This document shows, piece after piece, positions 5,301 to 40,622 of a stretch of DNA of 64,000 nucleotides. Origin of the DNA: Unio delphinus (taxonomy: Eukaryota > Mollusca > Bivalvia > Unionida > Unionidae). Both the position numbers and the translations under genes were made by a program. Numbering within the stretch: the stretch's first letter is position 1; every line of letters starts with the position of its first letter. Where the stretch lies: positions 881,501 to 945,500 of the forward strand of contig JAQISU010000345.1 in assembly GCA_029339505.1 (NCBI GenBank). Reading direction: 5' to 3'. Below the pieces are notes generated by a model. It was not told the DNA's origin and ran no database searches. It saw nothing but the letters and a program-made list of their open reading frames with translations.

Positions 5301-6098
5301 GATTACAACCGGATAGAATCCAATGCGAAATAGCGCGTGAAGTGATTTCAGAAACCCCAATGAATGATTTCTGGGAAGCGTGGAGACCAAACGATTTGAT
5401 CATTGCAAGTAGAAAAATAGTCAGGGATACACTTCAGATGAAGTTATTTGAATTGCATAAAGAAAAATTTGCAACGCTTCCAGTACCCCTTTGTTCTAGG
5501 CCATCGGATACACGAAAACAGAATATTGAAGTTGATATTCCAGGACAGAGTGAAAAACAAATTCTCGTATTAAATGATATTGTGCTGGTTGATATCAATG
5601 TCGTTGAAGATGCATTGCGTGCTAATAAATCCCCGTGGACGCTAGGATACGCAGCAACAATACACTCTTCACAGGGATTGACTATATCGAATACAATTGT
5701 TTGGATGGTGGATAATCACATCGAATGGTCAAATTTAGTCTATCTCGCAGTATCCAGAGTACGAAACATAAATCAACTTCGAAGAGTTGTTTTCGATGAT
5801 AATGACACAACAATAAGTGATATTGATGTTAGCATCATTAATAAAAAAACTCTCCGGTTACAAACAACAGGACAAAAAAAAACAACGAGAATTTGATATT
5901 GATGCTGAACTAATAATCACTTTGAAGAAACAACAGAATAATCACTGCGCGAGTTGCAATTGTATAATGCGTTGGCAGTATTCGGATAAGGATCCTCGCC
6001 AATTCACCGTTGACAGAAAAAGTAACAATCTCGGTCATGTCAGAAATAATGTGATGTTGACTTGTCTTGAGTGCAATAGACGCAACGGTGCTAGTTAA
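2307..6098 (+). pseudogene. Broken PolB-SF1 helicase-HNH gene, element A
   Basis: Collinear with the intact 1.2-kaa protein of element D. The N-terminus contains four copies of an 81-bp repeat (starts 2349, 2430, 2521, 2602), with a 10-bp extra insertion between copies 2 and 3 that breaks the frame. Further breaks: a frame change near 2690; loss of several bases near 3860 that removes the polymerase motif A region; a one-base loss near 5095 just after helicase Walker B; and an extra A in a poly-A run near 5845 before the HNH tail. Walker A (GGSGKTT) near 4860-4880, helicase motif III and the CxxC zinc tail remain legible. Recently dead, non-functional copy. Confidence 0.85.
2349..2680 (+). 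repeat. 81-bp coding minisatellite at the polymerase N-terminus
   Basis: Four near-identical copies of a unit encoding K-E-F-K-R-L-L-K-I-N-P-R-F-N-L-D plus a basic tail. Element C has three copies of a shorter version and element D one, so copy number differs in every element. Confidence 0.85.
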
Positions 6099-8275: not shown

Positions 8276-8503
8276 AGCAGCAGAGAGGGTGGATGACCAC
8301 ATCGTTGCGAGCAAAATTGATTAAAAAATCGTAAAATCTCCGTTTTTGCAAAAATGGAGACTTTTTTTTTGGTTAAATGAGATTTGTTGGAAACCTGATA
8401 TTTTGTTCGAAAACGTTATCTATAGGCCATATTTTGTTCGAAAACATGATCTGGAAGCCTTATTTTTGCTTGAAATCGTGGTCTGTTCACCCTCTCTGCT
8501 GCT
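8276..8503. repeat. Terminal module of element A
   Basis: A 228-bp block bounded by a 16-bp inverted repeat: AGCAGCAGAGAGGGTG at 8276-8291 and its complement at 8488-8503. Inside are a 24-bp palindrome with one mismatched pair (8337-8360, centre TTTTTGCAAAAA) and three tandem copies of an approximately 32-bp unit with the core TTTTG-C/T-TYGAAAACG. The same arrangement is at both ends of B. The inner inverted copy is unusual for a simple terminal repeat. Confidence 0.85.
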
Positions 8504-9074
8504 ATATTACTGTGAAGAAGTGTGAAACATGCTGTGTTGTGAATCTGTCATACTCTCCAGAATGACCAATGTTGATACAGTGTTGCAGTGTATGAAAAAA
8601 TAAACATGCTCCCTTTTGTTGCTGAACTTCATAAAATCAAACTCCAGACCAGAGTTCTGACCTTTAAATTTTCTGGGCTTTGGTCATTTTGCGGATATTT
8701 TGCCTTCAAATCACACATGTACACTGTTTAGATGACTAATCATGTTTTCTGTTTTGTAATTGGAGTCGCATCTGATGTCATTTATCATGGACTTGCTGAT
8801 CCTTGATAATGATAGTATGAACATTCTCATTCAAGGCAATGATGTTTAATAACTTTTTTTCTTTAAGACACAACTCTTTGATTTACTTGACTTAAAAAAA
8901 ATAGGGTTATTCTGCTTATTTATGCAAAGTAGCCTAATTGGTTCTGACTAGTTTCAAAGAACTGATGAACTTTACTGCCCTCACCATTAAGTAATTTGTG
9001 AAATGGTGGTTACTTAACTCAGACCATCTTAGCTTTTAATTGTCTCTATGATAATCTGCTGTATCAACTGCCCT
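8504..9074. other. Host intergenic DNA, no gene seen
   Basis: A/T-rich, no convincing open frame or recognised repeat on either strand. Confidence 0.5.
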
Positions 9075-9957
9075 GAGGATATTTTTACATAATGGTTCTA
9101 ATCAGGACTGTTTACTTTATAAAATGCCCAGAGGATATTTTTACATAATGGTTCTAATCAGGACTGTTTACTTTATAAAATGCCCCGAGGATATTTTTAC
9201 ATAATGGTTCTAATCAGGACTGTTTACTTTATAAAATGCCCAGAGGATATTTTTACATAATGGTTCTAATCAGGACTGTTTACTTTATAAAATGCCCCGA
9301 GGATATTTTTACATAATGGTTCTAATCAGGACTGTTTACTTTATAAAATGCCCTGAGGATATTTTTACATAATGGTTCTAATCAGGACTGTTTACTTTAT
9401 AAAATGCCCTGAGGATATTTTTACATAATGGTTCTAATCAGGACTGTTTACTTTATAAAATGCCCCGAGGATATTTTTACATAATGGTTCTAATCAGGAC
9501 TATTTACTTTATAAAATGCCCCGAGGATATTTTTACATAATGGTTCTAATCAGCACTGTTTACTTTATAAAATGCCCCGAGGATATTTTTACATAATGGT
9601 TCTAATCAGGACTGTTTACTTTATAAAATGCCCCGAGGATATTTTTACATAATGGTTCTAATCAGGACTGTTTACCTTATAAAATGCCCAGAGGATATTT
9701 TTACATAATGGTTCTAATCAGGACTGTTTACTTTATAAAATGCCCAGAGGATATTTTTACATAATGGTTCTAATAAGGACTGTTTACTTTATAAAATGCC
9801 CAGAGGATATTTTTACATAATGGTTCTAATCAGGACTGTTTACGTTATAAAATGCCCTGAGGATATTTTTACATAATGGTTCTAATCAGGACTGTTTACT
9901 TTATAAAATGCCCTGAGGATATTTTTACATAATGGTTCTAATCAGGACTGTTTACTG
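9075..9957. repeat. 56-bp minisatellite, 16 copies
   Basis: Units start with GAGGATATTTTTACATAATG at 9075, 9131 and every 56 bp to 9915. Copies differ mainly at one position before GAGG (C, T or A), so the array is recently homogenised. No coding frame persists across units. Confidence 0.95.
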
Positions 9958-11595: not shown

Positions 11596-12203
11596 ATTGT
11601 TAGGATAGAATTTTTTGGTAAAATTAATAAGATTGCAATTTTCTTTAAATTGTATTAAAGTAATGTTTTATTCATTTATATTAAAGTAAGTTCTAAAATA
11701 TATTTACATCAATTTCATTTATTTCTAAAGCACAACTATATATGTTAATAGAATGAAAATAGTTGCTGTGCAAGAATAAAATTGACAACGTACATCACTA
11801 GCTATACGAATGTACATTTGTTGTGTAGAATAAGTGTATAATGTTACTAAAGGCATTGTGTGCTGTTCCGCTGATTCAGTAAGAGCTCCCTAGCTGCTCT
11901 GTAAGAAATATATAGTTCTAAAAACCAGACAAATTTCAAGATTATGCATTGGCGAATTTCTAATCCGGTGACTAAGACAGCCTGGCCTTCTGTTAGTGAC
12001 ATAAAACAAAATGGTTCTTATCTAATGATGAACAGATGTCACTGCTGGCTTAGTATATTAAGGGATTACCATATTTGGTCCTGACTTGTGCCAAACGAGT
12101 ATAAGTAAGAGGCGTATATTACCTAGGTCAGTCACTTATACTTTGAAGCTAGCGGAACGATCGTTTTTTCATTACAGATGTAGCTGTCTTATCATCGTGG
12201 CGA
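11596..12203. repeat. Duplicated host flank, left of element B
   Basis: About 500 bp here match 46638-47135, which is the left flank of element C (shared strings such as AATTAATAAGATTGC and TTTCTTTAAATTGTATTAAAGTAATG). No gene seen. Bases 12198-12203 (TGGCGA) are repeated right after element B. Confidence 0.75.
12198..12203. repeat. Target-site duplication of element B, left copy
   Basis: TGGCGA; the right copy is at 26639-26644. Polintons characteristically make 5-6 bp duplications. The exact boundary is uncertain by one base because the last A could be the first base of the element. Confidence 0.75.
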
Positions 12204-12433
12204 ACAGCAGAAAGGGTGAACAGACCACGTTTTCAAGCAAAAATAAGGCTTCCAGATAACGTTTTCGAGCAAAATAAGGCTTACAGACCACGTTTTCGAA
12301 CAAAATATAAGGCTTTCAACAAAATCTCATTTAACCAAAAAAAAAAAAGTCTCTATTTTTGCAAAAACGGAGACTTTTACGATTTTTTAATTAATTTTGG
12401 TCGCAACTTGTTGTCATCGCCCTCTCTGCTGCT
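12204..12433. repeat. Left terminal module of element B
   Basis: 230 bp with the same parts as 8276-8503: outer end ACAGCAGAAAGGGTG, three subterminal units, the central TTTTTGCAAAAA palindrome (about 12350-12374) and the inner inverted copy ending at 12433. Confidence 0.85.
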
Positions 12434-12461
12434 ACAAGTTAACAAAAAATAAGAAATGATT

Positions 12462-13480
12462 TTAACCGAATATTTGATCCAGTCCGATACGATATCGTGT
12501 CCGAGGATCATGCAAATTTATTGTTGCAAATCCGTACGGGGTTGACTGAGCATTACTAAAGAAGTTTTTAAATTGATTGAAGTCCATATCAGAACACCAT
12601 GTCTGCCATATATTTCTAAGAGTATGAGTATCAACTCCGTTAAATACAGCAAGAATATTGCAGTTATCTCTGATGACTTTTGGAACCTGAGTGTAGCGTT
12701 GAGTGACATATATCACGTCAGTGTTTTTATGCCCCTGACTTTGTCAGGCTCTGGAAAAGATCCTAGCAGGATTTTTTTGTTTATCTAACATTATATCGTC
12801 GTATACGACTAAATTGTTAATATCTCCATCAATATCATCAATGCTCGGTGCTTCATCGATATCGGTTATAAACTCAATAATACCCTCTCCGGATTTTTCT
12901 ACCGCGCTGTCGTTAAAATCTTTTAGCACTTCATAACATCGTTGATCATCTACGTGGCGTTTTGCGCTGGGGCAATTAAATACAACTTATCCCACTTCAT
13001 CCATCTCATTATTAAATTGAGCAACAATTGCGTTTTACCGGATCCAGATGGCCCGATTATAATCATCCGGATAGAGTTTGGTAGCGCTGCTGGTTCTCTT
13101 GTTTTAGTCGCTCGGCTCTTTTTTTAAATTATTTTCTGACTTTATCAGCGCGGCAGTTATCTGTTTCTCACGGAAAGTCTTTAAAAACTCTTCTGGGGTC
13201 GGTATTGGTATATTTTTTCGTCGGAGATATTCTATTGCGGAACGATATTGTGGACAACCACACGCTATCCAAATGTGATATTTCCCTCTGACGCCTTTTC
13301 CACAACCAAGACAGGGTTTTGGCCCCTCGGGACAACCTTGTTTTGCAGTATAATTATGTACCCCACAGATTTCCCCGTATGAATTTTTTTCCACATCGTC
13401 GTGTAGATCCTAAAACAACGTCGTGTAGATCCTAAAAACAACCACGAGCATTTATTAACAGCAAATACTGGATTCACCAT
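12462..13480 (-). pseudogene. Left-arm Cys-rich/ATPase fusion remnant
   Basis: Read from 13480 down: the start of a Cys-rich protein (MVNPVFAVNKCSW...), then sequence joined to the packaging ATPase at its ATKTREP motif, then the rest of the ATPase to 12462. Broken by a roughly 19-bp tandem duplication in the Cys-rich part (13399-13437, absent from the right arm), a frame-shifting palindromic insertion at 12956-12968, and the 15-bp palindrome CCTGACTTTGTCAGG (12734-12748) that brings a stop into frame. Twelve bases near 13091 are also missing relative to the right arm. Walker A is intact. Not functional. Confidence 0.85.
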
Positions 13481-13534
13481 TATTATTAATTGTTAATAGG
13501 TATTCAATTAAACATTAAAAAGTATAATAGTATA

Positions 13535-16500
13535 ATGATTAGTGATTACTCTGATAACGATAATGAATTTTTTCAATGTCCGGAAACGTATCACGATCTT
13601 CAAGAATACTACAAAAGGCATTTAACGCCGTCATGGAATGTTTCTAGTAAAAAATCCGCGATGGAATTACTCACTGAAGACAGTTTTCTACGCCATGGTG
13701 TGATTATTCAACAACGGGGACAATTTTACGTTTTTGTAGATGATCCGGACATCACAGAATGTCAAGGATGTTCTGCGGTGAATGAAATTATCCCCCGGGA
13801 GCGATTAAGATATCCCACAATCGACATTGATTCTAAAAATCCATCATTGGAGGAGTTGTTATTGTATTTCAATGACTTAGTTGACTCTGTCAATGATGTT
13901 TTGGTTTTTGAAACCAGCGGCGGTTATCACATTTTATTGAAAACGATTCCTATCGATTTTGATACTCATCGGGAATTATTAAAAAAAATCGCCACAGACA
14001 GACCAACATGGAATGTTGATACACAGGCTGGACTTCATAGCATCAAATTACCCGGGACAAGATCAGCAAAAACAAACAGCATTGATAAACGATTAATTTA
14101 TCCTGTTGGATTTACTAGTTCATTATTGTCCTGCCCTGCTGCTATACAGCCTTGTTATGAAAAACGCACTGACAATGAAACCAATGACTTTATTCTCGGT
14201 GTTACTGGTGACGATTTGACCAACGAAGATTTCAATCAAATATCTATCGCGTTAACTGGTCAACCAGATCAAATCACTGGAATTACAAATCAAACCAGCA
14301 ATATGACTTCACTGGGAAGAGTTGCTGGATCGTATTGCAATATTTGTCAACGACGACATGGATATAACGAGATTGGTGGATTCATTGAGGGAAAAGCCAT
14401 CGATGCATTTGTGTGTGTGTATTCAGATCGATTTGTGATAGGTTGTTTCCGTACCACAAAAAATAAAATTACGATTGATGTCATTAACAATGATAGCATT
14501 CCCAATGATAGTAAAACACGCTACGAAAAATACCTAAAATCATATAATTATCGTCGAGGAGATCATAGCGGTGAATTCCCCACGAGGGTTCCGGATTATA
14601 CTTACTGTGAGCCCCCTGTTCATGAAAATGGCCAAGGATGTAGAATCATCCTTAACGACGACTATATGGATGGTTCTCGTTGTGGAATGGGTAAATCGGA
14701 AGCTGCATGGAAATCAATACCCGCTGACAAATCAACTCTGTGTATCATCTACCGAAAGACCTTTACCAGAAAGACAGCCATCGACTACAATCTCGAATCT
14801 TATGAAACAATTCATGGAGGAATTATTTTTGATACAAGAACTCATCGAAGGGTTATTTCGCAAATAGAATCCATTGTACGAGTGAGGGGAATTCCTGATG
14901 TGTTATTGTTAGATGAATGGCATGGCATTCTTCGTCAAATAATTTCATCGTGTCGTGGAAAACAAATTTGGGAAACACTGTTATGGTTGATTTCATCAGC
15001 AAAACGGGTTATTGTACTTGATGCAGATGCCAACAATGATGATCTAGAATTATTCAGGAAGTATTTAAACCGTCCGGACATGAAATTCATCATCAATGAG
15101 TATCAACCCGATCATGGAAAGAGGTTTATTGTAGAACAGTCTCATCGCGACAACTACGTTAAATTGTTAGACGCGCTGCAACAAGGAAATCGTGCAGTAG
15201 TCTTCACACAAAACAAACAACACGGGAATTATTCTGTAGAATCCCTTGCTAAACTATTACAGCATTTAGGATACCGAGTGAAGTATTATCACGCTGATAC
15301 TGATTCGGCAGAAAAACAAAGAGATTTTGCTGATCCCGTTGAAGCGTTTGAACACACCGACGTAGTGATTTATAATTGCACCGTAGAAGCAGGAATATCA
15401 ATCGTAGACGAACGATTCAAGTACATGACGGTATTTTCTGAACAATTAGGATCTGTAGAAGCCACTAAACAAGCAATTCATCGTTTCAGAAACATTACTG
15501 AAATCCATTATTCGTCTACTAAACGATCTTCCACAACATTGCCACTCACACGTGATGACATTATTTCTGCCATTGAATCACATGAAAGAAATTTATCCTC
15601 TACGGAATTGTTATTTAGGACTCCAAATCTCAATGATGTGAATTCCAGTTACGGATACGCATTTATCAGTGCCATTATTGACGAAAATAATTCGAAGTGT
15701 TATTTTACGGGACGACTTGTTACAATGATGAAAAGAACCGGATATGAAGTCACGTGGGAACTACCAGACGAATATTCGTTGTGGTGTGAAAAAAATAAAA
15801 CCAACAAAATCGATACCGCGGCAATGAACAATAATCCCGTCGTAGATGATTTTTTGAAATCTTCTATCGGGGGAAGAATTGCTGCTGCAAGTGATAAAAT
15901 CACCAGTGATAAAATCACCAGTGAACAACAAAAATATCATCGATATGATCCTGAGAATCCAAAGGATTTTCAACAACGATTAGAACCCTACGCGAAGAAA
16001 TTGATGTATCTCAATCATGTATTTCAAACTGATGTGGGAAAATTGGACACAAACACGATTGAACACCTCGACAAAAACGTATCACGGTTACAACGATACC
16101 AGCGAGTCCTTGTTGATAAATTTAATCATGGAAACGCGGTAACAACTACACCATGCCGATCTGATAAAATCAATCCACGACAACAACTCGAAATTATAAG
16201 AAATGTCCTTGAAGTATTAAAACTCCCTGATGTGGTTCCGGATGATTTATCGGTGAAAAGTGTTTCTGTGGACCGTACTGAATTAATCAAGAATATCAAT
16301 TACATGTTAAAAAACCCGGACCAATTCGATAAGTATCAAGCGTTATTAAAACACTTCGTTGAGATATTTCCGGACGTGTGGTTTAGAAATAAAACGCTAT
16401 CAGTGAAAAATATCATCGAAAAAATCAAATTGATTTACAAAGAATTCGGTGGAAAACTACAATCACATGATAAAAGAAACGCGAAACGCTCTAATCTCAC

Positions 16501-16684
16501 ATTGTTTTATCCTGAATGGCCCAAATCGGACTTTATAGATGATTCGATATGGATTAAAGAAACCGTTGACGATGTAGGTTTCGCTGGAAAAGATGTGACT
16601 GCAACGGATACACACACTACGATGTTAAGATTTCATATTTGGACCGTTAATGGCTGGTTCTCTCGATATGATATGTCGGATTGA
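13535..16684 (+). CDS. AEP-type primase fused to UL9-like SF2 helicase (left arm, intact)
   Basis: 1049 aa. The start at 13535 is used because the right arm begins at the same MISDYSD. N-terminal primase-polymerase domain: hhhDhD motif TIDID at about 95-99, GGYHIL (sxH motif) at about 129-134, and IKLPGTRS at about 170-177, as in PrimPol/UL52 enzymes. A zinc knuckle C-x2-C-x3-H (268-275) with the final C in IGCF (304) follows. The second half is a helicase: Walker A CGMGKSE (383-389), DEWH box (460-463), VLDADA (about 494), and an arginine-finger HRFRN (649-653), resembling herpesvirus origin-binding proteins. Expected to unwind origins and prime DNA synthesis. Divergent from the Cys-rich gene; followed directly by an origin-like dyad. 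Confidence 0.85.
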   Translation: MISDYSDNDNEFFQCPETYHDLQEYYKRHLTPSWNVSSKKSAMELLTEDSFLRHGVIIQQRGQFYVFVDDPDITECQGCSAVNEIIPRERLRYPTIDIDSKNPSLEELLLYFNDLVDSVNDVLVFETSGGYHILLKTIPIDFDTHRELLKKIATDRPTWNVDTQAGLHSIKLPGTRSAKTNSIDKRLIYPVGFTSSLLSCPAAIQPCYEKRTDNETNDFILGVTGDDLTNEDFNQISIALTGQPDQITGITNQTSNMTSLGRVAGSYCNICQRRHGYNEIGGFIEGKAIDAFVCVYSDRFVIGCFRTTKNKITIDVINNDSIPNDSKTRYEKYLKSYNYRRGDHSGEFPTRVPDYTYCEPPVHENGQGCRIILNDDYMDGSRCGMGKSEAAWKSIPADKSTLCIIYRKTFTRKTAIDYNLESYETIHGGIIFDTRTHRRVISQIESIVRVRGIPDVLLLDEWHGILRQIISSCRGKQIWETLLWLISSAKRVIVLDADANNDDLELFRKYLNRPDMKFIINEYQPDHGKRFIVEQSHRDNYVKLLDALQQGNRAVVFTQNKQHGNYSVESLAKLLQHLGYRVKYYHADTDSAEKQRDFADPVEAFEHTDVVIYNCTVEAGISIVDERFKYMTVFSEQLGSVEATKQAIHRFRNITEIHYSSTKRSSTTLPLTRDDIISAIESHERNLSSTELLFRTPNLNDVNSSYGYAFISAIIDENNSKCYFTGRLVTMMKRTGYEVTWELPDEYSLWCEKNKTNKIDTAAMNNNPVVDDFLKSSIGGRIAAASDKITSDKITSEQQKYHRYDPENPKDFQQRLEPYAKKLMYLNHVFQTDVGKLDTNTIEHLDKNVSRLQRYQRVLVDKFNHGNAVTTTPCRSDKINPRQQLEIIRNVLEVLKLPDVVPDDLSVKSVSVDRTELIKNINYMLKNPDQFDKYQALLKHFVEIFPDVWFRNKTLSVKNIIEKIKLIYKEFGGKLQSHDKRNAKRSNLTLFYPEWPKSDFIDDSIWIKETVDDVGFAGKDVTATDTHTTMLRFHIWTVNGWFSRYDMSD

Positions 16685-16697
16685 TCAAGGGAAAAGT

Positions 16698-16748
16698 GTG
16701 GAAAGTCACAGTATTAATTATTTTATATACAATTATGTGACTTTCCAC
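16698..16748. promoter_or_regulatory. Origin-like dyad after the primase gene, left arm
   Basis: Arms GTGGAAAGTCACA (16698-16710) and TGTGACTTTCCAC (16736-16748), perfect 13-bp match, 25-bp A/T core. Starts 14 bp after the stop codon. Confidence 0.7.
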
Positions 16749-17034
16749 ATCACTGATAGAGCCGTTAAAACAACAAAATGATCGTGTCAAAAATCATCTA
16801 TGATATGTCATTGATCAATGGGGGCTTATACGATGCTGTCAAATATCATCTAACACCACCGGATTACAGATTTTCGATTGTCTCGTAACATAACGGAAGT
16901 AAATAGTGCGGGTCATAATCATTTTGTCGTAGAAATATAACGGATTTTTGAGAATTATCCAACTCGGTACGATCACACAACCCTATTGATTTCTGTTATC
17001 ATTTTAAAGATTAATTAAATAACAGCTTTAATAT

Positions 17035-17487
17035 ATGTCTGCGACAGAAACAATCGATCAAATGCGGCAAAAATACCCCAGTGGGAAATTTTCAGAGCGT
17101 ATCAACAATAATGGACGTCGCAAAGTATCCTATAGAGCTCCCGATGAAATTGTGCATCCGATAGCAACCCGAGTGAATCGAGATTCTACAGCACGTGTTA
17201 ATCTCTCCAGAAAATATCATCAAGAAAATCAACAAAATCAACAAAATCAACAAAAATCCGTTGAGGTGTTAGATATCCAAATACTACTAGACGATGGTGT
17301 CCCCGCTGTGATAATAATTGATGATCAAGGCACCCATATCGTTCGCAATAAACCGGATTCTATTGATCCATCAAAACCGCATAGATTAATTGAAATCGAA
17401 AATACCGAGTCTTTAAGCTATTTCTTCTCTGTTCCAATCAGCGAAACTGAGTTTAAAGCGATTGAAACCAGATTACAACGCAAGTGA
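17035..17487 (+). CDS. 150-aa conserved protein, left arm
   Basis: Not recognised. The N-terminal half is basic and polar (Y-P-S-G-K-F, then an arginine-rich stretch), followed by a Gln/Asn repeat (QENQQNQQNQQK, about 62-74). The C-terminal half is a compact alpha/beta-looking domain (V-E-V-L-D-I-Q-I-L-L-D-D-G..., ending FKAIETRLQRK). The right-arm copy (21396-21848) is open and nearly identical (one Glu/Gly difference at residue 38), unlike the decayed primase copy. Converges with the HTH gene, with the stops 2 bp apart. A DNA-binding or virion-associated role is possible, not shown. Confidence 0.75.
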   Translation: MSATETIDQMRQKYPSGKFSERINNNGRRKVSYRAPDEIVHPIATRVNRDSTARVNLSRKYHQENQQNQQNQQKSVEVLDIQILLDDGVPAVIIIDDQGTHIVRNKPDSIDPSKPHRLIEIENTESLSYFFSVPISETEFKAIETRLQRK

Positions 17488-17489
17488 GA

Positions 17490-18233
17490 TTAGTCATCAT
17501 CAAGTACTTCATTGATTTCTTTTATTAACTCAAGATCTTCTTCGGGTAAAAATAACCTCCATGTGTTATCTTTGCGCCGGTTACGTTTTTGTCTGTGTTT
17601 TTTCTTTTTTAGTTGTGATTCATTTTCTTGTGCTACAGCCTCATTTTGTTGTAGAAGTTGATTGTATTTACTTGCGAGCTCTGCGTATTTAATGTGAATA
17701 GATTCTAATTCACGTCGCACATCATTGAGCTCAGTCATAAGTTTACTGCGATCTCGAACTGCATCGCTATGGTGTTGCTGTGTGGTATCTAATTGGTATT
17801 GTAGATCATTTAACGAATCATTGATAGATTGTTGTTGTTGTTGTTGTTGTTGTCGTTGTTGTCGTAACGCTGTTACTTTTCCTTGCAGCAATTTATTCTG
17901 ATTGGTTAGGTTGGTCACTTGAGACTGCAATTGACAGATCATTTCTTTATCAATGATTTTATCAGTGACTCTGTCACTGGCAACATGCACTTTTCCATCT
18001 AACATTTGATTCATTTCATTCTCAACTTCAGCATCAATAAGCCGCTCAACGGGTACATCATTAGCATCATCAGCGCTAACATTTCCGATTCCAATTTCAT
18101 CCGATTTCCATATTCTATAAATCCGCTGATAACTGATTTTATATTTATCAGCAATTTCTGCTATTCCAACACGGTTTCGCAATTGCTTAATCGTATTAAT
18201 GTCATCGCGGGTTAGTATCCTACGATGAGGCAT
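17490..18233 (-). CDS. HTH plus coiled-coil protein, left arm
   Basis: 247 aa. Residues 5-45 look like a transposase-type helix-turn-helix (TRDDINTIKQLRN...IAEIADKYKISYQRIYRIW). A long heptad-rich region (about 95-205) contains a polyglutamine run of CAA/CAG repeats. A strongly basic stretch KKKKHRQKRNRRKD (about 207-221) and an acidic C-terminus follow. The order suggests a dimeric sequence-specific DNA-binding protein, possibly a regulator or dyad/terminus binder; this is inference. The gene contains the 17-bp palindrome CAGTGACTCTGTCACTG (17963-17979). The right-arm copy (20650-21393) is open with very few substitutions. Confidence 0.8.
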   Translation of the reverse strand: MPHRRILTRDDINTIKQLRNRVGIAEIADKYKISYQRIYRIWKSDEIGIGNVSADDANDVPVERLIDAEVENEMNQMLDGKVHVASDRVTDKIIDKEMICQLQSQVTNLTNQNKLLQGKVTALRQQRQQQQQQQQSINDSLNDLQYQLDTTQQHHSDAVRDRSKLMTELNDVRRELESIHIKYAELASKYNQLLQQNEAVAQENESQLKKKKHRQKRNRRKDNTWRLFLPEEDLELIKEINEVLDDD

Positions 18234-18626
18234 GTTTTATACAATTAAAAAATATTTTTTAACAACAACAACAACAACAACAAAAAAAAAGTGTGTTACA
18301 ATAGAACGGCTAAATCCACCGTTTTTCAGACCAAAATCGGCCTATATCCATGATGATATTTATCAACGAAAGCTCAGAGCGTTAATTGCTGAGAGTATTC
18401 ACAACGCCGAATCTCGTGAGTTGTATAAAAAAGAATCACGGTATTTATAATTATCAACAGGTCAATAGCATACTTGTCGCCACAGGATAACAGGTTGTAC
18501 AATTGTCCACCAGATGGATTAGCATAGACTATCTCAATCTCTCAGTTGTTTTGTCATTGTAAGTCAATACGATTTTTTGATACGGTCATTGAAGTGTAAT
18601 CTCGTCGGATAAATACTTCTATCATT
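18234..18626. other. Non-coding region 5' of the HTH gene, left arm
   Basis: Contains an (AAC)n tract (about 18262-18283) and sequence mirrored at 20255-20640. A 72-codon open frame (18232-18450) is present but begins in low-complexity repeat and is not scored as a gene. Confidence 0.5.
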
Positions 18627-18692
18627 GATGGGGAAAGTGCCGGAATTACTAATAAATAATTATTTTTAATTAATACTGGCACTTTCCCCATC
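18627..18692. promoter_or_regulatory. Origin-like dyad, perfect 15-bp arms
   Basis: GATGGGGAAAGTGCC (18627-18641) and its exact complement (18678-18692) around a 36-bp A/T-only-like core. Confidence 0.7.
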
Positions 18693-18947
18693 TATGGATC
18701 AACTCAGTCTGAGCCATCGTATCGAGAGAACCATCCAGTAATTACACAACGCCGAATCTCGCGAGTGCGCATACATGTATCAATTTGATATAAAAAAGAA
18801 TCATGGTATTTATAATTATCAACAGGTCAATAGCATACTTGAAACAATCCACCAGATGGATTATCTCAATGTCTCAGTTGTTTTGTCATTGTAAGTCAAT
18901 ATGATTTTTAATACGATCATGGAAGCGTTATTTCATCCTATCAGGTT

Positions 18948-19000
18948 TGTGGAAAGTGTCATAATTGTATATAAAATAATTAATACCGACACTTTCCACA
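18948..19000. promoter_or_regulatory. Origin-like dyad, perfect 13-bp arms
   Basis: TGTGGAAAGTGTC (18948-18960) and complement (18988-19000), A/T-rich core of 27 bp. Mirrored at 19881-19933. Confidence 0.7.
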
Positions 19001-19100
19001 CTTTTCCATTGATCAATCTGATATGTCATTGCAAATCAATATGATTTTTTACATCACCATGGAAGCGTTATCTGATTGTTTTAACGGCGTTATCATTGAT

Positions 19101-19161
19101 GAGGGAAGTGTGGAAATTGTATAAAAAATAATTATTTTTAATTATTATCGGCACTTTCCCC
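19101..19161. promoter_or_regulatory. Origin-like dyad, imperfect
   Basis: GAGGGAAGTG at the left and GCACTTTCCCC at the right around an A/T core; one base is missing in the left arm. Confidence 0.5.
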
Positions 19162-19265
19162 ACTTTCCATTGATCAACCTGACATGTCATTGCAAATCAA
19201 TATGATTTTTGACATCACCATGGAAGCGTTATTTGATTGTTTTAACAGCTTCTATCATTGATGTT

Positions 19266-19311
19266 GAAAGTGTCCAAATTCCTATAAAAATAATTAATAC
19301 GGACACTTCCC
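19266..19311. promoter_or_regulatory. Origin-like dyad, imperfect
   Basis: GAAAGTGTCC (19266-19275) and GGACACTTCCC (19301-19311), one base short on the right, A/T core. Confidence 0.5.
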
Positions 19312-19414
19312 TCATTCTATTTTTGATCAATCTGACATGTCATTGCAAATCAATATGATTTTTGACATCACCATGGAAGTGTTATTTCATCCTATAACAG
19401 TTTCTATCATTGAT

Positions 19415-19475
19415 GGGGAAAGTGCCGGAATTACTAATAAAATAATTATTTTTAATTATTATCGGCACTTTCCCC
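19415..19475. promoter_or_regulatory. Origin-like dyad, perfect 12-bp arms
   Basis: GGGGAAAGTGCC (19415-19426) and complement (19464-19475), A/T core of 37 bp. Confidence 0.65.
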
Positions 19476-19517
19476 ACTTTCCATTGATTATTTGATTGTT
19501 TTAACGGCGTTATCATT

Positions 19518-19574
19518 GATGGCGCAAGTATCATAATTGTAATAAAAATAATTAATACCGACACTTTCGCCATC
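19518..19574. promoter_or_regulatory. Origin-like dyad, two mismatches
   Basis: GATGGCGCAAGTATC (19518-19532) and GACACTTTCGCCATC (19560-19574), A/T core. Confidence 0.5.
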
Positions 19575-19758
19575 TATGATTCAGCTTCAACAATATGTCT
19601 CTTTATTACAACCACGCATCATTATAGCCACGCGATTGCAAATCAGCACTGTTTCACCGGCAATAACGCAAGTGTTGAATACAGCGTGATTGAAATTCTA
19701 TATAAAAAAAATGAGGTGACTGAAAAATTATAATAAAAAATATTTTTTCCACCCTAAT

Positions 19759-19865
19759 AATATATCACACCTTTTTATTGTTGTTGTTGCTGTTATTATG
19801 TTTATTCTCAAGTACATACTAATGCGACTTAACAACAACAACAACAATAAAAAGGTGTGATATAT
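19759..19865. repeat. Centre of the element B palindrome
   Basis: A 31-bp perfect stem (19759-19789 with 19835-19865; AATATATCACACCTTTTTAT... and complement) closes a loop of about 45 bp that is not self-complementary. The loop would be the turn of a folded-back molecule. Confidence 0.85.
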
Positions 19866-19880
19866 TGATCAATGGAAAAG

Positions 19881-19933
19881 TGTGGAAAGTGTCGGTATTA
19901 ATTATTTTATATACAATTATGACACTTTCCACA
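19881..19933. promoter_or_regulatory. Origin-like dyad, right arm
   Basis: TGTGGAAAGTGTC (19881-19893) and complement (19921-19933). Partner of 18948-19000. Confidence 0.7.
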
Positions 19934-20188
19934 AACCTGATAGGATGAAATAACGCTTCCATGACCGTATTAAAAATCATATTGACTTACAATGACAAAA
20001 CAACTGAGACATTGAGATAATCCATCTGGTGGATTGTTTCAAGTATGCTATTGACCTGTTGATAATTATAAACACCATGATTCTTTTTTATATCAAATTG
20101 ATACATGTATGCGCACTCGCGAGATTCGGCGTTGTGTAATTACTGGATGGTTCTCTCGATACGATGGCTCAGACTGAGTTGATCCATA

Positions 20189-20254
20189 GATGGGGAAAGT
20201 GCCAGTATTAATTAAAAATAATTATTTATTAGTAATGCCGGCACTTTCCCCATC
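20189..20254. promoter_or_regulatory. Origin-like dyad, right arm
   Basis: GATGGGGAAAGTGCC (20189-20203) and complement (20240-20254). Partner of 18627-18692. The rest of 20255-20649 mirrors 18234-18626 and holds no gene I trust. Confidence 0.7.
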
Positions 20255-20649
20255 AATGATAGAAGTATTTATCCGACGAGATTACACTTCAATGACCGTA
20301 TCAAAAAATCGTATTGACTTACAATGACAAAACAACTGAGAGATTGAGATAGTCTATGCTAATCCATCTGGTGGACAATTGTACAACCTGTTATCCTGTG
20401 GCGACAAGTATGCTATTGACCTGTTGATAATTATAAATACCGTGATTCTTTTTTATACAACTCACGAGATTCGGCGTTGTGAATACTCTCAGCAATTGAC
20501 GCTCTGAGCTTTCGTTGATAAATATCATCATGGATATAGGCCGATTTTGGTCTGAAAAACGGTGGATTTAGCCGTTCTATTGTAACACACTTTTTTGTTG
20601 TTGTTGTTGTTGTTGTTGTTGTTAAAAATATTTTTTAATTGTATAAAAC

Positions 20650-21393
20650 ATGCCTCATCGTAGGATACTAACCCGCGATGACATCAACACGATAAAGCAA
20701 TTGCGAAACCGTGTTGGAATAGCAGAAATTGCTGATAAATATAAAATCAGTTATCAGCGGATTTATAGAATATGGAAATCGGATGAAATTGGAATCGGAA
20801 ATGTTAGCGCTGATGATGCTAATGATGTACCCGTTGAGCGGCTTATTGATGCTGAAGTTGAGAATGAAATGAATCAAATGTTAGATGGAAATGTGCATGT
20901 TGCCAGTGACAGAGTCACTGATAAAATCATTGATAAAGAAATGATCTGTCAATTGCAGTCTCAAGTGACCAACCTAACCAATCAGAATAAATTGCTGCAA
21001 GGAAAAGTAACAGTGTTACGACAACAACGACAACAACAACAACAACAACAACAATCTATCAATGATTCGTTAAATGATCTACAATACCAATTAGATACCA
21101 CACAGCAACACCGTAGCGATGCAGTTCGAGATCGCAGTAAACTTATGACTGAGCTCAATGATGTGCGACGTGAATTAGAATCTATTCACATTAAATACGC
21201 AGAGCTCGCAAGTAAATACAATCAACTTCTACAACAAAATGAGGCTGTAGCACAAGAAAATGAATCACAACTAAAAAAGAAAAAACACAGACAAAAACGT
21301 AACCGGCGCAAAGATAACACATGGAGGTTATTTTTACCCGAAGAAGATCTTGAGTTAATAAAAGAAATCAATGAAGTACTTGATGATGACTAA
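20650..21393 (+). CDS. HTH plus coiled-coil protein, right arm
   Basis: 247 aa, inverted copy of 17490-18233 with only a few substitutions (for example Lys to Asn after MLDG, Ala to Val in the coiled coil, His to Arg near the QQH motif), all missense and none disrupting. Same HTH, polyQ and basic regions. The 17-bp palindrome is at 20904-20920. Two open copies in one element give a double dose; whether both are expressed is unknown. Confidence 0.8.
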   Translation: MPHRRILTRDDINTIKQLRNRVGIAEIADKYKISYQRIYRIWKSDEIGIGNVSADDANDVPVERLIDAEVENEMNQMLDGNVHVASDRVTDKIIDKEMICQLQSQVTNLTNQNKLLQGKVTVLRQQRQQQQQQQQSINDSLNDLQYQLDTTQQHRSDAVRDRSKLMTELNDVRRELESIHIKYAELASKYNQLLQQNEAVAQENESQLKKKKHRQKRNRRKDNTWRLFLPEEDLELIKEINEVLDDD

Positions 21394-21395
21394 TC

Positions 21396-21848
21396 TCACT
21401 TGCGTTGTAATCTGGTTTCAATCGCTTTAAACTCAGTTTCGCTGATTGGAACAGAGAAGAAATAGCTTAAAGACTCGGTATTTTCGATTTCAATTAATCT
21501 ATGCGGTTTTGATGGATCAATAGAATCCGGTTTATTGCGAACGATATGGGTGCCTTGATCATCAATTATTATCACAGCGGGGACACCATCGTCTAGTAGT
21601 ATTTGGATATCTAACACCTCAACGGATTTTTGTTGATTTTGTTGATTTTGTTGATTTTCTTGATGATATTTTCTGGAGAGATTAACACGTGCTGTAGAAT
21701 CTCGATTCACTCGGGTTGCTATCGGATGCACAATTCCATCGGGAGCTCTATATGATACTTTGCGACGTCCATTATTGTTGATACGCTCTGAAAATTTCCC
21801 ACTGGGGTATTTTTGCCGCATTTGATCGATTGTTTCTGTCGCAGACAT
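21396..21848 (-). CDS. 150-aa conserved protein, right arm
   Basis: Inverted copy of 17035-17487, open over its full length, with Gly instead of Glu at residue 38. It keeps the Gln/Asn repeat and the C-terminal domain. Its preservation beside a badly decayed primase copy on the same arm suggests either gene conversion between the arms or selection on this gene. Confidence 0.75.
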   Translation of the reverse strand: MSATETIDQMRQKYPSGKFSERINNNGRRKVSYRAPDGIVHPIATRVNRDSTARVNLSRKYHQENQQNQQNQQKSVEVLDIQILLDDGVPAVIIIDDQGTHIVRNKPDSIDPSKPHRLIEIENTESLSYFFSVPISETEFKAIETRLQRK

Positions 21849-22134
21849 ATATTAAAGCTGTTATTTAATTAATCTTTAAAATGATAACAGAAATCAATAG
21901 GGTTGTGTGATCGTACCGAGTTGGATAATTCTCAAAAATCCGTTATATTTCTACGACAAAATGATTATGACCCGCACTATTTACTTCCGTTATGTTACGA
22001 GACAATCGAAAATCTGTAATCCGGTGATGTTAGATGATATTTGACAGCATCGTATAAGCCCCCATTGATCAATGACATATCATAGATGATTTTTGACACG
22101 ATCATTTTGTTGTTTTAACGGCTCTATCAGTGAT

Positions 22135-22185
22135 GTGGAAAGTCACATAATTGTATATAAAATAATTAATACTGTGACTTTCCAC
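22135..22185. promoter_or_regulatory. Origin-like dyad after the primase remnant, right arm
   Basis: GTGGAAAGTCACA (22135-22147) and complement (22173-22185). Partner of 16698-16748; the dyad is perfect in both arms. Confidence 0.7.
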
Positions 22186-22198
22186 ACTTTTCCCTTGA

Positions 22199-25100
22199 TC
22201 AATCCGACATATCATATCGAGAGAACCAGCCATTAACGGTCCAAATATGAAATCTTAACATCGTAGTGTGTGTATCCGTTGCAGTCACATCTTTTCCAGC
22301 GAAACCTACATCGTCAACGGTTTCATTAATCCATATCGAATCATCTATAAAGTCCGATTTGGGCCATTCAGGATAAAACAATGTGAGATTAGATCGTTTC
22401 GCGTTTCTTTTATCATGTGATTGTAGTTTTCCACCGAATTCTTTGTAAATCAATTTGATTTTTTCGATGATATTTTTCACTGATAGTGTTTTGTTTCTAA
22501 ACCACACGTCCGGAAATATCTCAACGAAGTGTTTTAATAACGCTTGATACTTATCGAATTGGTCCGGGTTTTTTAACATGTAATTGATATTCTTGATTAA
22601 TTCAGTACGGTCCACAGAAACACTTTTCACCGATAAATCATCCGGAACCACATCAGGGAGTTTTAATACTTCAAGGACATTTCTTATAATTTCGAGTTGT
22701 TGTCGTGGATTGATTTTATCAGATCGGCATGGTGTAGTTGTTACCGCGTTTCCATGATTAAATTTATCAACAAGGACTCGCTGGTATCGTTGTAACCGTG
22801 ATACGTTTTTGTCGAGGTGTTCAATCGTGTTTGTGTCCAATTTTCCCACATCAGTTTGAAATACATGATTGAGATACATCAATTTCTTCGCGTAGGGTTC
22901 TAATCGTTGTTGAAAATCCTTTGGATTCTCAGGATCATATCGATGATATTTTTGTTGTTCACTGGTGATTTTATCACTTGCAGCAGCAATTCTTCCCCCC
23001 GATAGAAGATTTCAAAAAATCATCTACGACGGGATTATTGTTCATTGCCGCGGTATCGATTTTGTTGGTTTTATTTTTTTCACACCACAACGAATATTCG
23101 TCTGGTAGTTCCCACGTGACTTCATATCCGGTTATTTTCATCATTGTAACAAGTCGTCCCGTAAAATAACACTTCGAATTATTTTCGTCAATAATGGCAC
23201 TGATAAATGCGTATCCGTAACTGGAATTCACATCATTGAGATTTGGAGTCCTAAATAACAATTCCGTAGAGGATAAATTTCTTTCATGTGATTCAATGGC
23301 AGAAATAATGTCATCACGAGTGAGTGGCAATGTTGTGGAAGATCGTTTAGTAGACGAATAATGGATTTCAGTAATGTTTCTGAAACGATGAATTGCTTGT
23401 TTAGTGGCTTCTACAGATCCTAATTGTTCAGAAAATACCGTCATGTACTTGAATTGTTCGTCTACGATTGATATTCCTGCTTCTACGGTGCAATTATAAA
23501 TCACTACGTCGGTGTGTTCAAACGCTTCAACGGGATCAGCAAAATCTCTTTGTTTTTCTGCCGAATCAGTATCAGCGGTATCCTAAATGCTGTAATAGTT
23601 TAGCAAGGGATTCTACAGAATAATTCCCGTGTCGTTTGTTTTGTGTGAATACTACTGCACGATTTCCTTGTTGCAGCGCGTCTAACAATTTAACGTAGTT
23701 GTCGCGATGAGACTGTTCTACAATAAACCTCTTTCCATGATCGGGTTGATACTCATTGATGATGAATTTCATGTCCGGACGGTTTAAATACTTCCTGAAT
23801 AATTCTAGATCATCATTGTTGGCATCTGCATCAAGTACAATAACCCGTTTTGCTGATGAAATCAACCATACCAGTGTTTCCCAAATTTGTTTTCCACGAC
23901 ACGATGAAATTATTTGACGAAAAATGCCATGCCATTCATCTAACAATAACACATCAGGAATTCCCCTCACTCGTACAATGGATTCTATTTGCGAAATAAC
24001 CCTTCGATGAGTTCTCGTATCAAAAATAATTCCTCCATGAATTGTTTCATAAGATTCGAGATTGTAGTCGATGGCTGTCTTTCTGGTAAAGGTCTTTCAG
24101 TAGCTGATACACAGAGTTGATTTGTCAGCGGGTATTGATTTCCATGCAGCTTCCGATTTACCCATTCCACAACGAGAACCATCCATATAGTCGTCGTTAA
24201 GGATGATTCTACATCCTTGGCCATTTTCATGAACAGGGGGCTCACAGTAAGTATAATCCGGAACCCTCGTGGGGAATTCACCGCTATGATCTCCTCGACG
24301 ATAATTATATGATTTTAGGTATTTTTCGTAGCGTGTTTTACTATCATTGGGAATGCTATCATTGTTAATGACATCAATCGTAATTTTATTTTTTGTGGTA
24401 CGGAAACAACCTATCACAAATCGATCTGAATACACACACACAAATGCATCGATGGCTTTTCCCTCAATGAATCCACCAATCTCATTGTATCCGTGTCGGC
24501 GCTGACAAATATTGCAATACGATCCAGCAACCCTTCCCAGTGAAATCATATTGCTGGTTTGATTTGTAATTCCAATGATTTCATCTGGTTGACCAGTTAA
24601 CGCGATAGATATTTGATTGAAATCTTCGTTGGTCAAATCGTCATCAGTAACACCGAGAATAAAGTCATTGGTTTCATTGTCAGTGCGTTTTTCATAACAA
24701 GGCTGTATAGCAACAGGACAGGACAATAATGAACTAGTAAATCTAACAGGATAAATTAATCGTTTATCAATGCTGTTTGTTTTTGCTGATCTTGTCCCGG
24801 GTAATTTGATGCTATGAAGTCCAGCCTGTGTATCAACATTCCATGTTGGTCTGTCTGTGGCGATTTTTTTTAATATTTCCCGATGAGTATCAAAATCGAT
24901 AGGAATCGTTTTCAATAAAATGTGATAACCGCCGCTGGTTTCAAAAACCAAAACATCATTGACAGAGTCAACTAAGTCATTGAAATACAATAACAACTCC
25001 TCCAATGATGGATTTTTAGAATCAATGTCGATTGTGGGATATCTTAATCGCTCCCGGGGGATAATTTCATTCACCGCAGAACATCCTTGACATTCTGTGA

Positions 25101-25317
25101 TGTCCGGATCATCTACAAAAACGTAAAATTGTCCCCGTTGTTGAATAATCACACCATGGCGTAGAAAACTATCTTCAGTGAGTAATTCCATCGCGGATTT
25201 TTTACTAGAAACATTCCATGACGGTGTTAAATGCCTTTTGTAGTATTCTTGAAGATCGTGATACGTTTCCGGACATTGAAAAAATTCATTATCGTTATCA
25301 GAGTAATCACTAATCAC
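22199..25317 (-). pseudogene. Right-arm primase-helicase, decayed
   Basis: Inverted copy of the intact left-arm gene. It is open from 25317 to 24097 (primase, zinc knuckle, Walker A), then a CGA-to-TGA nonsense change follows Walker A. A 17-bp deletion near 23577 and a one-base C insertion in a C run near 22995 shift the frame twice more. DEWH and the arginine-finger block remain readable. The truncated 406-aa first part would keep the whole primase domain, so a primase-only product is conceivable. Confidence 0.9.
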
Positions 25318-25378
25318 TAATCATTATACTATTATACTTTTTAATGTTTAATTGAATACCTATTAACAATTAATAATA
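25318..25378. promoter_or_regulatory. Divergent start region, primase and Cys-rich genes, right arm
   Basis: 61 bp, A/T-rich, between the primase start (25317, minus) and the Cys-rich start (25379, plus). It has TATTATACTATTATAC-type strings next to the primase ATG. Same layout as 61327-61368 in D. Confidence 0.35.
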
Positions 25379-26381
25379 ATGGTGAATCCAGTATTTGCTG
25401 TTAATAAATGCTCGTGGTTGTTTTTAGGATCTACACGACGATGTGGAAAAAATTCATACGGGGAATTCTGTGGGGTACATAATTATACTGCAAAACAAGG
25501 TTGTCCCGAGGGGCCAAAACCCTGTCTTGGTTGTGGAAAAGGCGTCAGAGGGAAATATCAAATTTGTATAGCGTGTGGTTGTCCACAATATCGTTCCGCA
25601 ATAGAATACCTCAAACGAAAAAATAGACCAATACCGACCCCAGAAGAGTTTTTAAAGACTTTCCGTGAAAAACATATAAAGTCAGAAAATAATAAAAAAA
25701 AGAGCCGAGCGACTAAAACAAGAGAACCAGTTAAGCATCATGCAGCGCTACCAAACTCTATCCGGATGATTATAATCGGGCCATCTGGATCCGGTAAAAC
25801 GCAATTGTTGCTCAATTTAATAATGAGATGGATGAAGTGGGATAAGTTGTATTTAATTGCCCCAGCGCAAAGCGCCACGTAGATGATCAACGATGTTATG
25901 AAGTGCTAAAAGATTTTAACGACAGCGCGGTAGAAAAATCCGGAGAGGGTATTATTGAGTTTATAACCGATATCGATGAAGCACCGAGCATTGATGATAT
26001 TGATGGAGATATTAACAATTTAGTCGTTTACGACGATATAATGTTAGATAAACAAAAAAATCCTGCTAGGATCTTTTCCAGAGCCTGACAAAGTCAGGGG
26101 CATAAAAACACTGACGTGATATATGTCACTCAACGCTACACTCAGGTTCCAAAAGTCATCAGAGATAACTGCAATATTCTTGCTGTATTTAACGGAGTTG
26201 ATACTCATACTCTTAGAAATATATGGCAGACATGGTGTTCTGATATGGACTTCAATCAATTTAAAAACTTCTTTAGTAATGCTCAGTCAACCCCGTACGG
26301 ATTCGAAACAATAAATCTACATGACCCCAGACAAGGTCTGGGACACGATATCGTATCGGACTGGATCAAATATTCGGTTAA
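25379..26381 (+). pseudogene. Right-arm Cys-rich/ATPase fusion, broken
   Basis: Begins as an open 167-codon frame: a Cys-rich zinc protein (C-x2-C...GKGVRGKYQ-x2-C-x2-C pattern, a paralogue of 1884-2264), then directly ATKTREP and the ATPase Walker A IIGPSGSGKTQ. The frame ends at LIAPAQSAT because an insertion containing GCGCAAAGCGC (25865-25875) shifts it. The next segment is stopped by the insertion CCTGACAAAGTCAGG (26084-26098), and a third palindrome CCCAGACAAGGTCTGGG (26326-26342) is found in this arm only. In A, C and D the Cys-rich gene and ATPase are separate and on opposite strands. Confidence 0.85.
26326..26342. repeat. Arm-specific short palindromic insertion
   Basis: 17 bp, stem CCCAGAC/GTCTGGG with loop AAG. 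The left arm, A, C and D lack it at the homologous place. It therefore arose after the palindrome formed. Confidence 0.85.
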
Positions 26382-26409
26382 AATCATTTCTTATTTTTTG
26401 TTAACTTGT

Positions 26410-26638
26410 AGCAGCAGAGAGGGTGATGACCACATCGTTGCGAGCAAAATTGATTAAAAAATCGTAAAATCTCCGTTTTTGCAAAAATAGAGACTTTTTT
26501 TTTTGGTTAAATGAGATTTTGTTGGAAGCCTTATATTTTGTCTGAAAACGTAGTTTATAAGCCATATTTTGCTTGAAAACGTTATCTGGAAGCCTTATTT
26601 TTGCTTGAAAACGTGGTCTGTTCACCCTCTCTGCTGCT
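26410..26638. repeat. Right terminal module of element B
   Basis: Inner 16-mer AGCAGCAGAGAGGGTG at 26410-26425, central 24-bp palindrome near 26467-26490, three subterminal GAAAACG units, outer end CACCCTCTCTGCTGCT ending at 26638, followed by TGGCGA (26639-26644). Confidence 0.85.
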
Positions 26639-26674
26639 TGGCGATACTCTTTTAAGAAAGCCTGAACTCTTTCA

Positions 26675-40040: not shown

Positions 40041-40622
40041 TTGAACCAATTTTCATTCCATGAGGTTGTCTGAATCTCACTTTCATTGTAAGACATTGCA
40101 TGAGGTTATCTGAATCTCACCTTCATTGTAAGAAATTAAACGACCTTATCTGAATCTCACCTTTTCATCGTACGAAAGTACATGAGGTTATCCGAATCTC
40201 ACTTTCATTGTACGAAATTACATGAGGTTATCTGAATCTCACTTTCATTGTAAGTAATTACACGAGGTTATCCGAATCTCACTTTCATTGTAAGAAATTA
40301 CAAGAGGTTATCCGAATCTCATTTTTCATCGTACGAAAGTACATGAGGTTATCCGAATCTCACTTTCATTGTATGAAATTACACGAGGTTATCCGAATCT
40401 CACTTTCATTGTAAGAAATTACAAGAGGTTATCTGAATCTCACTTTCATTGTATGAAATTACGAGGTTATCCGAATCTCACTTTCATTGTAAGAAATTAC
40501 AAGAGGTTATCTGAATCTCACTTTCATTGTATGAAATTACACGAGGTTATCTGAATCTCACTTTCATTGTATGAAATTACAAGAGGTTATCCGAATCTCA
40601 CTTTCATTGGAAGAAATTACAT
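40041..40622. repeat. 39-40-bp minisatellite, about 14 copies
   Basis: Unit GAGGTTATCYGAATCTCACTTTCATTGTAYGAAATTACA. The unit period is close to a multiple of three, which creates a spurious repetitive open frame. Confidence 0.9.

Follow-up and report, generated by a model that had tools for sequence, protein, structure and literature searches.

A palindromic element family with Polinton-like ends in the genome of Unio delphinus

Introduction

Polintons, also called Mavericks, duplicate 6 bp of their target site. The relevant passages of PMC4028283 describe them as encoding pPolB, an RVE integrase, an ATPase and a protease, together with capsid and penton genes. Snapback subgenomes of adeno-associated virus (AAV) are presented in the corresponding part of PMC8235507 as self-complementary molecules, in symmetric or looped asymmetric forms, which replicate with Rep and helper functions. 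Here, we describe the element P, a 14.4-kb palindrome in a stretch of 64,000 nucleotides of the bivalve Unio delphinus (assembly GCA_029339505.1, contig JAQISU010000345.1, positions 881,501 to 945,500), which is hereafter called the window. P belongs to a family whose members are transmitted as palindromes. We put at roughly 70% the probability that P is a copy of a mobile family that is transmitted as a 14–17 kb palindrome, has a self-complementary hairpin as its mobile stage, and lives as a satellite or hitchhiker of Polintons.

Foldback elements and miniature inverted-repeat transposable elements (MITEs) are inverted-repeat transposons that are mostly non-coding and whose enzymes are supplied elsewhere; in contrast to them, the arms of the palindromes described here carry genes under selection, and a conserved loop forms the axis. 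P and its relatives have the long inverted arms around a short loop that characterise a snapback genome. They would share with the AAV snapback subgenomes a self-complementary molecule, the single-stranded loop of the asymmetric form, and functions supplied by others (PMC8235507). The AAV forms, as this part of the source presents them, are varying by-products in one virus population, whereas the palindrome family has kept one axis through deep divergence, is chromosomal and carries its own replication genes. Virophages and other satellites of larger DNA viruses, as treated in the relevant part of PMC4028283, are likewise small DNA elements thought to depend on a helper. Unlike the satellites described there, the present family is palindromic, has ends like those of its presumed helper, and no full capsid gene set was found in it.

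Structure of Element P

P was delimited by comparing the window with itself in BLAST, by reading the ends and by aligning the arms; the axial repeat was found by an inverted-repeat scan and folding. Element A, named below, is a Polinton that adjoins P.

12203..26638, no strand: whole palindromic element P (self-BLAST, end reading, arm alignment)
12203..19017, plus strand: left arm of P, matched part (self-BLAST, arm alignment)
19864..26638, minus strand: right arm of P, matched part (self-BLAST, arm alignment)
12198..12202, plus strand: left copy of the target-site duplication TGGCG, 5 bp
26639..26643, plus strand: right copy of the target-site duplication TGGCG, 5 bp
12203..12434, plus strand: terminal repeat of helper type at the left end of P, 89–90% identical to both ends of element A, bounded by AGCAGCAG...CTGCTGCT
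26409..26638, minus strand: terminal repeat of helper type at the other end of P, 91–92% identical to both ends of element A
19759..19789, plus strand: left half of the axial perfect 31-bp inverted repeat
19836..19866, plus strand: right half of the axial perfect 31-bp inverted repeat
19790..19835, plus strand: 46-nt asymmetric loop at the axis, conserved across the palindrome family
19018..19758, plus strand: 741 bp present only left of the axis, without a mirror copy, most readily explained by a deletion from the right arm alone
18977..19488, plus strand: ~161-bp repeats arrayed next to the axis, with dyad symmetry inside each repeat; related dyads lie at 16668-16777 and, in element A, at 749-863

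A single inverted match in P joins 12205-19017 to 26636-19864 at 97.3% over 6848 columns, which confirms the 14.4-kb palindrome with two inverted 6.8-kb arms of the original prediction. The aligned arms differ by 79 substitutions at 6740 compared positions and by 14 indels, and the divergence falls from 6.1% at the tips to ~0.8% or less near the axis; in a family-wide alignment, the figure is 113/6792, inflated at the axis by the one-sided deletion. From axis to tip, each arm carries a repeat region, a gene for a helix-turn-helix (HTH) and coiled-coil protein, ORF150 (ORF, open reading frame), a primase-helicase, a Zn-ribbon, an A32-type ATPase and the terminal repeat.

Termini of the type of element A had been predicted for P, and the outer 241 bp are indeed 89–92% identical to both terminal repeats of A. 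The flanking duplication had been given as the 6-bp TGGCGA. Since the terminus reads AACAGCAG at the left and AGCAGCAG at the right, base 12203 is the first base of P and the duplication is the 5-bp TGGCG; in the eight other examined copies with this canonical terminus, it is also 5 bp. In the terminal repeats at 12203-12434, 26409-26638, 8276-8503 and 47191-47340, the two bounds carry the terminal motif as an inverted pair (AGCAGCAG...CTGCTGCT), so each end is a unit of 150–230 bp that could fold back.

The axial stem is the only perfect inverted repeat of the window whose arms reach 20 bp or more and whose loop does not exceed 100 (stretches of only two kinds of base excluded), and the fold of the stem-loop has a z-score of -11.2. 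The central spacer, left unexplained by the original prediction, is thus this 31-bp repeat around its 46-nt loop. The one-sided gap of 741 bp next to the axis has the appearance of a later deletion, because the right arm skips to the mirror position of 19017 at the end of the stem, a reading borne out by the copies C140, C122 and C30 (other loci are named by such handles), which are symmetric at that place. A dyad-symmetric intergenic repeat is common to element A (749-863) and P (16668-16777) and is multiplied beside the axis of P.

Distribution of the Family in the Host Assembly

The host assembly (2.505 Gb, 1246 contigs, one genome) was searched with parts of P; each similarity search scored the best 40 candidates, and the counts are therefore lower bounds. 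The outer end of P gave at least 42 matches, including eight inverted pairs besides P, 9–19 kb across, many of the others being single A-type ends. With the helicase stretch, at least 40 matches were obtained: 13 inverted pairs including P, all in palindrome orientation, and 14 unpaired matches, whose partners may rank below the best 40 candidates. The centre of P matched at least 39 loci among the best 40 of 2162 candidates, and by manual count 32 of the 39 had long matches on both strands about one point; in the remaining seven, P included, one side was short or absent. A pattern of the loop in the code of the International Union of Pure and Applied Chemistry (IUPAC) had 47 exact matches in the assembly and none in the reversed control.

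Twenty centres were taken nearly in rank order from the results of the centre query. Sixteen are palindromes of 1.7–2.3 kb at 98–99%, C186 is palindromic over 0.7 kb only, C14 has lost the centre between its matching arms, and C108 and C212 are not palindromic. One of the sixteen, C122, has an extra inverted 1.1-kb copy near the axis. Twelve further centres, absent from those results, were located by the loop pattern (11 in list order, and C264 picked for its unpaired helicase match); at ±400 bp, seven of them are palindromic (6/11 and C264) and five are not.

Ten other loci were read from the axis to 10 kb on each side. Two full arms of 7.0–8.7 kb were found in nine of them. At the tenth, C186, an A-type Polinton starts within 0.6 kb of the palindrome axis and was apparently inserted there.

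Target-Site Duplications

Perfect 5-bp duplications lie outside the palindrome in all nine copies examined that have the canonical terminus (P and eight others), and all are different: TGGCG, CAAGG, CATTT, AACCG, AGTTG, TCATC, AGATG, GGAAA and ATATA, the last of which is weak, as it sits in an AT repeat. The full copy C255 has a different terminus and lies inside a tandem array of ~30-bp units; its duplication, CTAGT, was read by eye and is uncertain. No similarity was found among the 600-bp flanks of different copies. The claim that P integrated as one unit came with a test set beforehand, other copies with the same centre and different target duplications, and it passed this test.

These scars bear on two other origins of the palindromes. 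Each could go back to a half-length element that was duplicated in inverted orientation once it had inserted, and the centres that are not palindromic (five of the 12 further ones, and L013 and L014 among the 20) would fit. This is very improbable, as one axis is common to 32 of the 39 listed loci, the duplications lie outside the full palindrome in 9/9 copies, and changes in the stem agree on both sides. For P itself, formation after insertion was at first favoured by the ATPase insertions shared by the arms and by the diverged tips, and it was dropped once other copies showed the same axis. Palindromes are also a known hazard of assembly and can arise, for example, from fold-back reads with a missed adapter. 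That P is such an artefact is hardly credible: its arms differ by the substitutions and indels given above, and, except in C255 with its tandem array, the two flanks of a copy differ and the palindrome stops at a fixed terminal motif with the duplication outside it.

Comparison of the Arms and the Stem

Arms within a copy differ by 0–0.4% in seven of the nine other full copies. Substitutions between arms are fewest in C67 (0/7573), C255 (2/7435), C30b (3/7696), C518 (6/7188) and C86 (13/7509), and more numerous in C19 (25/7245), C30a (26/7000), C251 (108/8281) and C140 (447/6843). P had been taken for a one-off defective form; instead, it belongs to a diversified family with very young copies, among them C67 with its identical arms. 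The helicase stretch, which is compared in nine copies because C255 lacks this gene, shows 0–12 differences of ~1500 between the arms of seven copies, 21 in P and 131 in C140, against 0.6–35.6% between copies. In the tree of this stretch, the arms pair in C19, C251, C518, C67 and C30b, while C140, C86, and P with C30a stay unresolved.

The arms of P have 19 amino-acid-changing and 19 silent differences, where 74% changing would be expected (p 0.0016). This ratio was considered as proof of a long life as a palindrome, a use that was weakened by the imported-looking patches of divergence in C140 and C251, which could give the same ratio.

The stem was aligned in 25 of the 31 located stem-loops, six with non-palindromic surroundings having been excluded beforehand, which favours pairing; 99.0% of the cells pair, compared with at most 67% in slid versions. 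Both partners are changed in 71 cells, where shuffles average 23, and covariation scores 0.202 compared with a shuffle value of 0.073 (in both cases 0/500 shuffles reach the observed value); relatedness of the copies is allowed for by the slid version and not by the shuffle.

The palindrome is thus transmitted as a palindrome: the copies share an axis and have separate duplications, their arms are nearly identical despite the divergence of the copies, and the stem changes in step on both sides.

How it is copied can be explained in more than one way. In a palindromic replicon with a central origin, replication would run from the dyad repeats of the axis to both ends, and recombination would even the arms with no hairpin. 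Palindromic ribosomal DNA (rDNA) minichromosomes of ciliates and slime moulds, which replicate from the centre outward, offer an analogue: they too are long natural palindromes that may replicate from near the centre, and they carry rRNA genes and are not known to insert with target duplications. Dyad repeats do lie beside the axis of P, the encoded protein resembles the plasmid replication protein CyRepA1 (E 4e-30, below the curated cut-off), and hetero-palindromes such as C140 would be allowed. A central origin alone does not explain the conserved 46-nt asymmetric loop with its paired stem, nor arm identity as full as that of C67, and we regard this alternative as possible, if doubtful.

Selection enters into another alternative. 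For the primase-helicase, the ratio of nonsynonymous to synonymous divergence (dN/dS) is 0.14–0.28 in 21/21 pairs of seven open frames, one per copy (the broken C140 and C251 excluded), with synonymous divergence (dS) between copies reaching values above 1.3; for the HTH gene, it is 0.18–0.42 in 45/45 pairs of ten genes. P, C140, C19 and C518 have outer genes that are truncated or broken. Thus, the replication core is kept under purifying selection, while the outer cargo looks expendable. If the palindromes were chromosomal DNA transposons with giant inverted repeats, moved by a Polinton integrase, copied solely by host replication and evened by gene conversion, the gradient between the arms of P, from 6.1% at the tips to ~0.8% or less near the axis, would be as conversion at a palindrome centre would give it. 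We consider this unlikely, as the replication genes are under purifying selection and in the youngest copies the likeness of the arms extends over their whole length to the tips instead of being confined to the region of the axis.

Relationship to the Resident Polintons

Element A (C361:873877-890003, 16.1 kb) has terminal repeats that are 99% alike and the 5-bp duplication ATATT. Its genes include those for a PolB-helicase, an RVE integrase, a PLA2-like protein and, at the right end, an ATPase, PolB and PLA2 being labels of our own reading. Elements A and C, and perhaps B, seem to fuse a family B polymerase with a superfamily 1 helicase (57682-61377, 49732-51843 and 2649-5896), the helicase part being assigned by a Pfam match and the polymerase part by reading only.

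The canonical palindrome copies have the terminal inverted repeats and the short (5 bp) target duplications of Polintons/Mavericks. In six of the nine, the terminal repeats are 89–98% identical to those of A, and in the other three 70–76%; the end of C86, one of these three, matches element B (94.7% over 151 bp). Helper-type ends without an integrase, the mark of a non-autonomous element, are thus A-like in six of the nine canonical copies and B-like in C86. The terminal repeats of C518 are 94% identical to those of C19, from which its core differs by 35%, but 76% identical to those of C67, from which its core differs by 2.7%. The terminal repeats are therefore exchanged.

The genes next to the ends vary as well. 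The outer gene corresponds to the right-end ATPase of A in four of ten copies (P, C30a, C140 and C19), being broken or truncated in P, C140 and C19. In C67, C86 and C251, it corresponds to the left-end 452-aa gene of A (62% identical protein), of which C518 has a fragment; from its position and sequence pattern, this gene is a probable penton. C30b has a 235-aa protein instead. Pfam and PHROGs gave no family name for the 468-aa outer gene, the 235-aa protein of C30b or ORF163.

At E 1e-5, none of 20 arms matched the RVE integrase of A, and no match was found in the 20 arms for eight other queried proteins: PLA2, the PolB-helicase of element C, and six other ORFs of the left half of A, queried without one being singled out as the major capsid gene. 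The fixed hairpin axis also sets the palindromes apart from Polintons/Mavericks, as does a different replication gene in nine of ten copies, whereas terminal repeats, the 5-bp duplications seen here, an end-adjacent A32-type ATPase or probable penton gene, and a related Zn-ribbon protein are common to both. Since P and eight of the nine other full copies have neither polymerase nor integrase, and C255 has no integrase, we do not file them as Polintons.

In place of the primase-helicase, C255 encodes a protein of 1321 aa. It has no Pfam match of its own; 4 of its 12 homologues match PF03175, which we take to be the family B polymerase, and a DTDS motif is invariant in the 12 aligned sequences. 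The protein belongs with the family B polymerases. The absence of an integrase, as originally predicted, therefore holds throughout the 20 arms, while the predicted absence of a polymerase holds for P and fails for C255.

Tandem arrays outside the elements were noted at 9062-9956 (56-bp units x16) and 40055-40623 (40-bp units x14).

Genes of Element P

12462..13480, minus strand: Zn-ribbon and A32-type packaging ATPase gene, left arm, broken; in pieces, with insertions common to both arms
25379..26390, plus strand: Zn-ribbon and A32-type ATPase gene, right arm, broken; Pox_A32 match on one piece
13490..16684, plus strand: primase-helicase (CyRepA1-like; Herpes_ori_bp helicase core), left arm, open frame (profile matches, alignment)
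22199..25320, minus strand: primase-helicase, right arm, broken by a stop and frameshifts (ORF and arm comparison)
17035..17487, plus strand: ORF150, left arm, with homologues in other copies
21396..21848, minus strand: ORF150, right arm (ORF list)
17490..18233, minus strand: HTH and coiled-coil protein, left arm, whole; HTH matches below the curated cut-off
20650..21393, plus strand: HTH and coiled-coil protein, right arm, whole, as in the left arm

The helicase part of the primase-helicase matches Herpes_ori_bp at 4.5e-10. It also matches CyRepA1 (NCBIfam NF042913) at E 4.3e-30, and the scores of P (105.2), C67 (111.2) and C19 (99.6) lie below the curated cut-off of 200 bits; unlike the CyRepA1 plasmid replication proteins, it belongs here to an integrated palindromic element. 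All five aligned primase-helicases have the DxD, H and K positions that an archaeo-eukaryotic primase should show, and this putative label comes from reading the alignment. Public data yielded one relative with 71% identity, on a contig of 4.6 kb, and three proteins with 40–41% identity in the helicase part and 28–29% overall. No relative was found in IMG/VR with the primase-helicase or its alignments as the query, nor with P0003, and searches of the PDB gave no useful match.

Two small insertions, shared by the arms, disrupt both copies of the ATPase of P and, according to the alignment, are absent from elements A, B and C; the Zn-ribbon is our own label for that part of the gene. In the ATPase region (12503-13090 and 25730-26340), there are three small insertions shaped stem-AAA/AAG-stem, that is, mini-hairpins, of a shape that snap-back templated repair might leave.

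In the right arms, the HTH-ORF block has opposite orientations in two sets of copies, one with C140, C30a, C251 and P, the other with C19, C67, C30b, C518, C86 and C255.

Discussion

A hairpin mobile form can be inferred because one step accounts for three features at once, an asymmetric loop that is conserved, a stem that pairs and arms that are identical, and the most likely mode of replication is that of a self-complementary hairpin genome. The original prediction of a fold-back (snap-back) genome fits, given the conserved asymmetric loop and a stem whose two sides change together. While mobile, the genome would be self-complementary, with every gene present twice, and would snap back into a half-length duplex closed by the loop. 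Each arm would template the other, so that both are kept identical. The element's own primase-helicase (in one subtype, a family B polymerase) may act at the dyad repeats around the axis, and the integrase, perhaps also the capsid, would be supplied by a Polinton with matching terminal repeats.

Several observations weigh against this explanation. The arms of C140 differ by 0.2% inside and by 14–21% in the outer three eighths, yet this copy has a clean duplication, and a strictly arm-by-arm templated genome should not integrate in such a form, unless recombination took place later. Unevenly diverged patches between the arms are also seen in C251 and P. Judging by the mosaic C140 and C251, recombination between an arm and other lineages may also occur, something not expected under the simplest hairpin model. 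One-sided loss or the presence of a single arm is common, given that five of the 12 further centres show no palindrome at ±400 bp. In the stem, besides the prior exclusion of six stem-loops, two of the five measures do not stand out: pairs changed on both sides are 11/45 compared with 8.8 in shuffles (reached by 32/500), and further pair types are 19 compared with 19.1 (350/500). Because the same two insertions break the ATPase in both arms of P, packaging by its own ATPase is doubtful. A helper integrase acting on the palindrome ends is suggested only by the similarity of the ends and the equal length of the duplications. All these observations come from the assembled sequence of one genome.

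In the open-licence PMC papers, we found no palindromic element of such a kind. Whether the family makes up a new class of element, in which the heritable unit is a hairpin genome whose genes evolve in concert, whose ends are swapped for those of an active Polinton, and which is still moving in the species, is a proposition with about as much for it as against it.

Long palindromes are usually seen as unstable accidents. Here, the axis was kept while the primase-helicase diverged to a dS above 1.3, and a genome can thus persist for long in palindromic form. The family provides a natural example of two arms that evolve in concert, a mobile counterpart of the AAV snapback genomes that can be tested, and a candidate satellite that may adapt its ends to different helpers. 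Since some copies have arms that hardly differ, recent movement can be tested directly in living animals.

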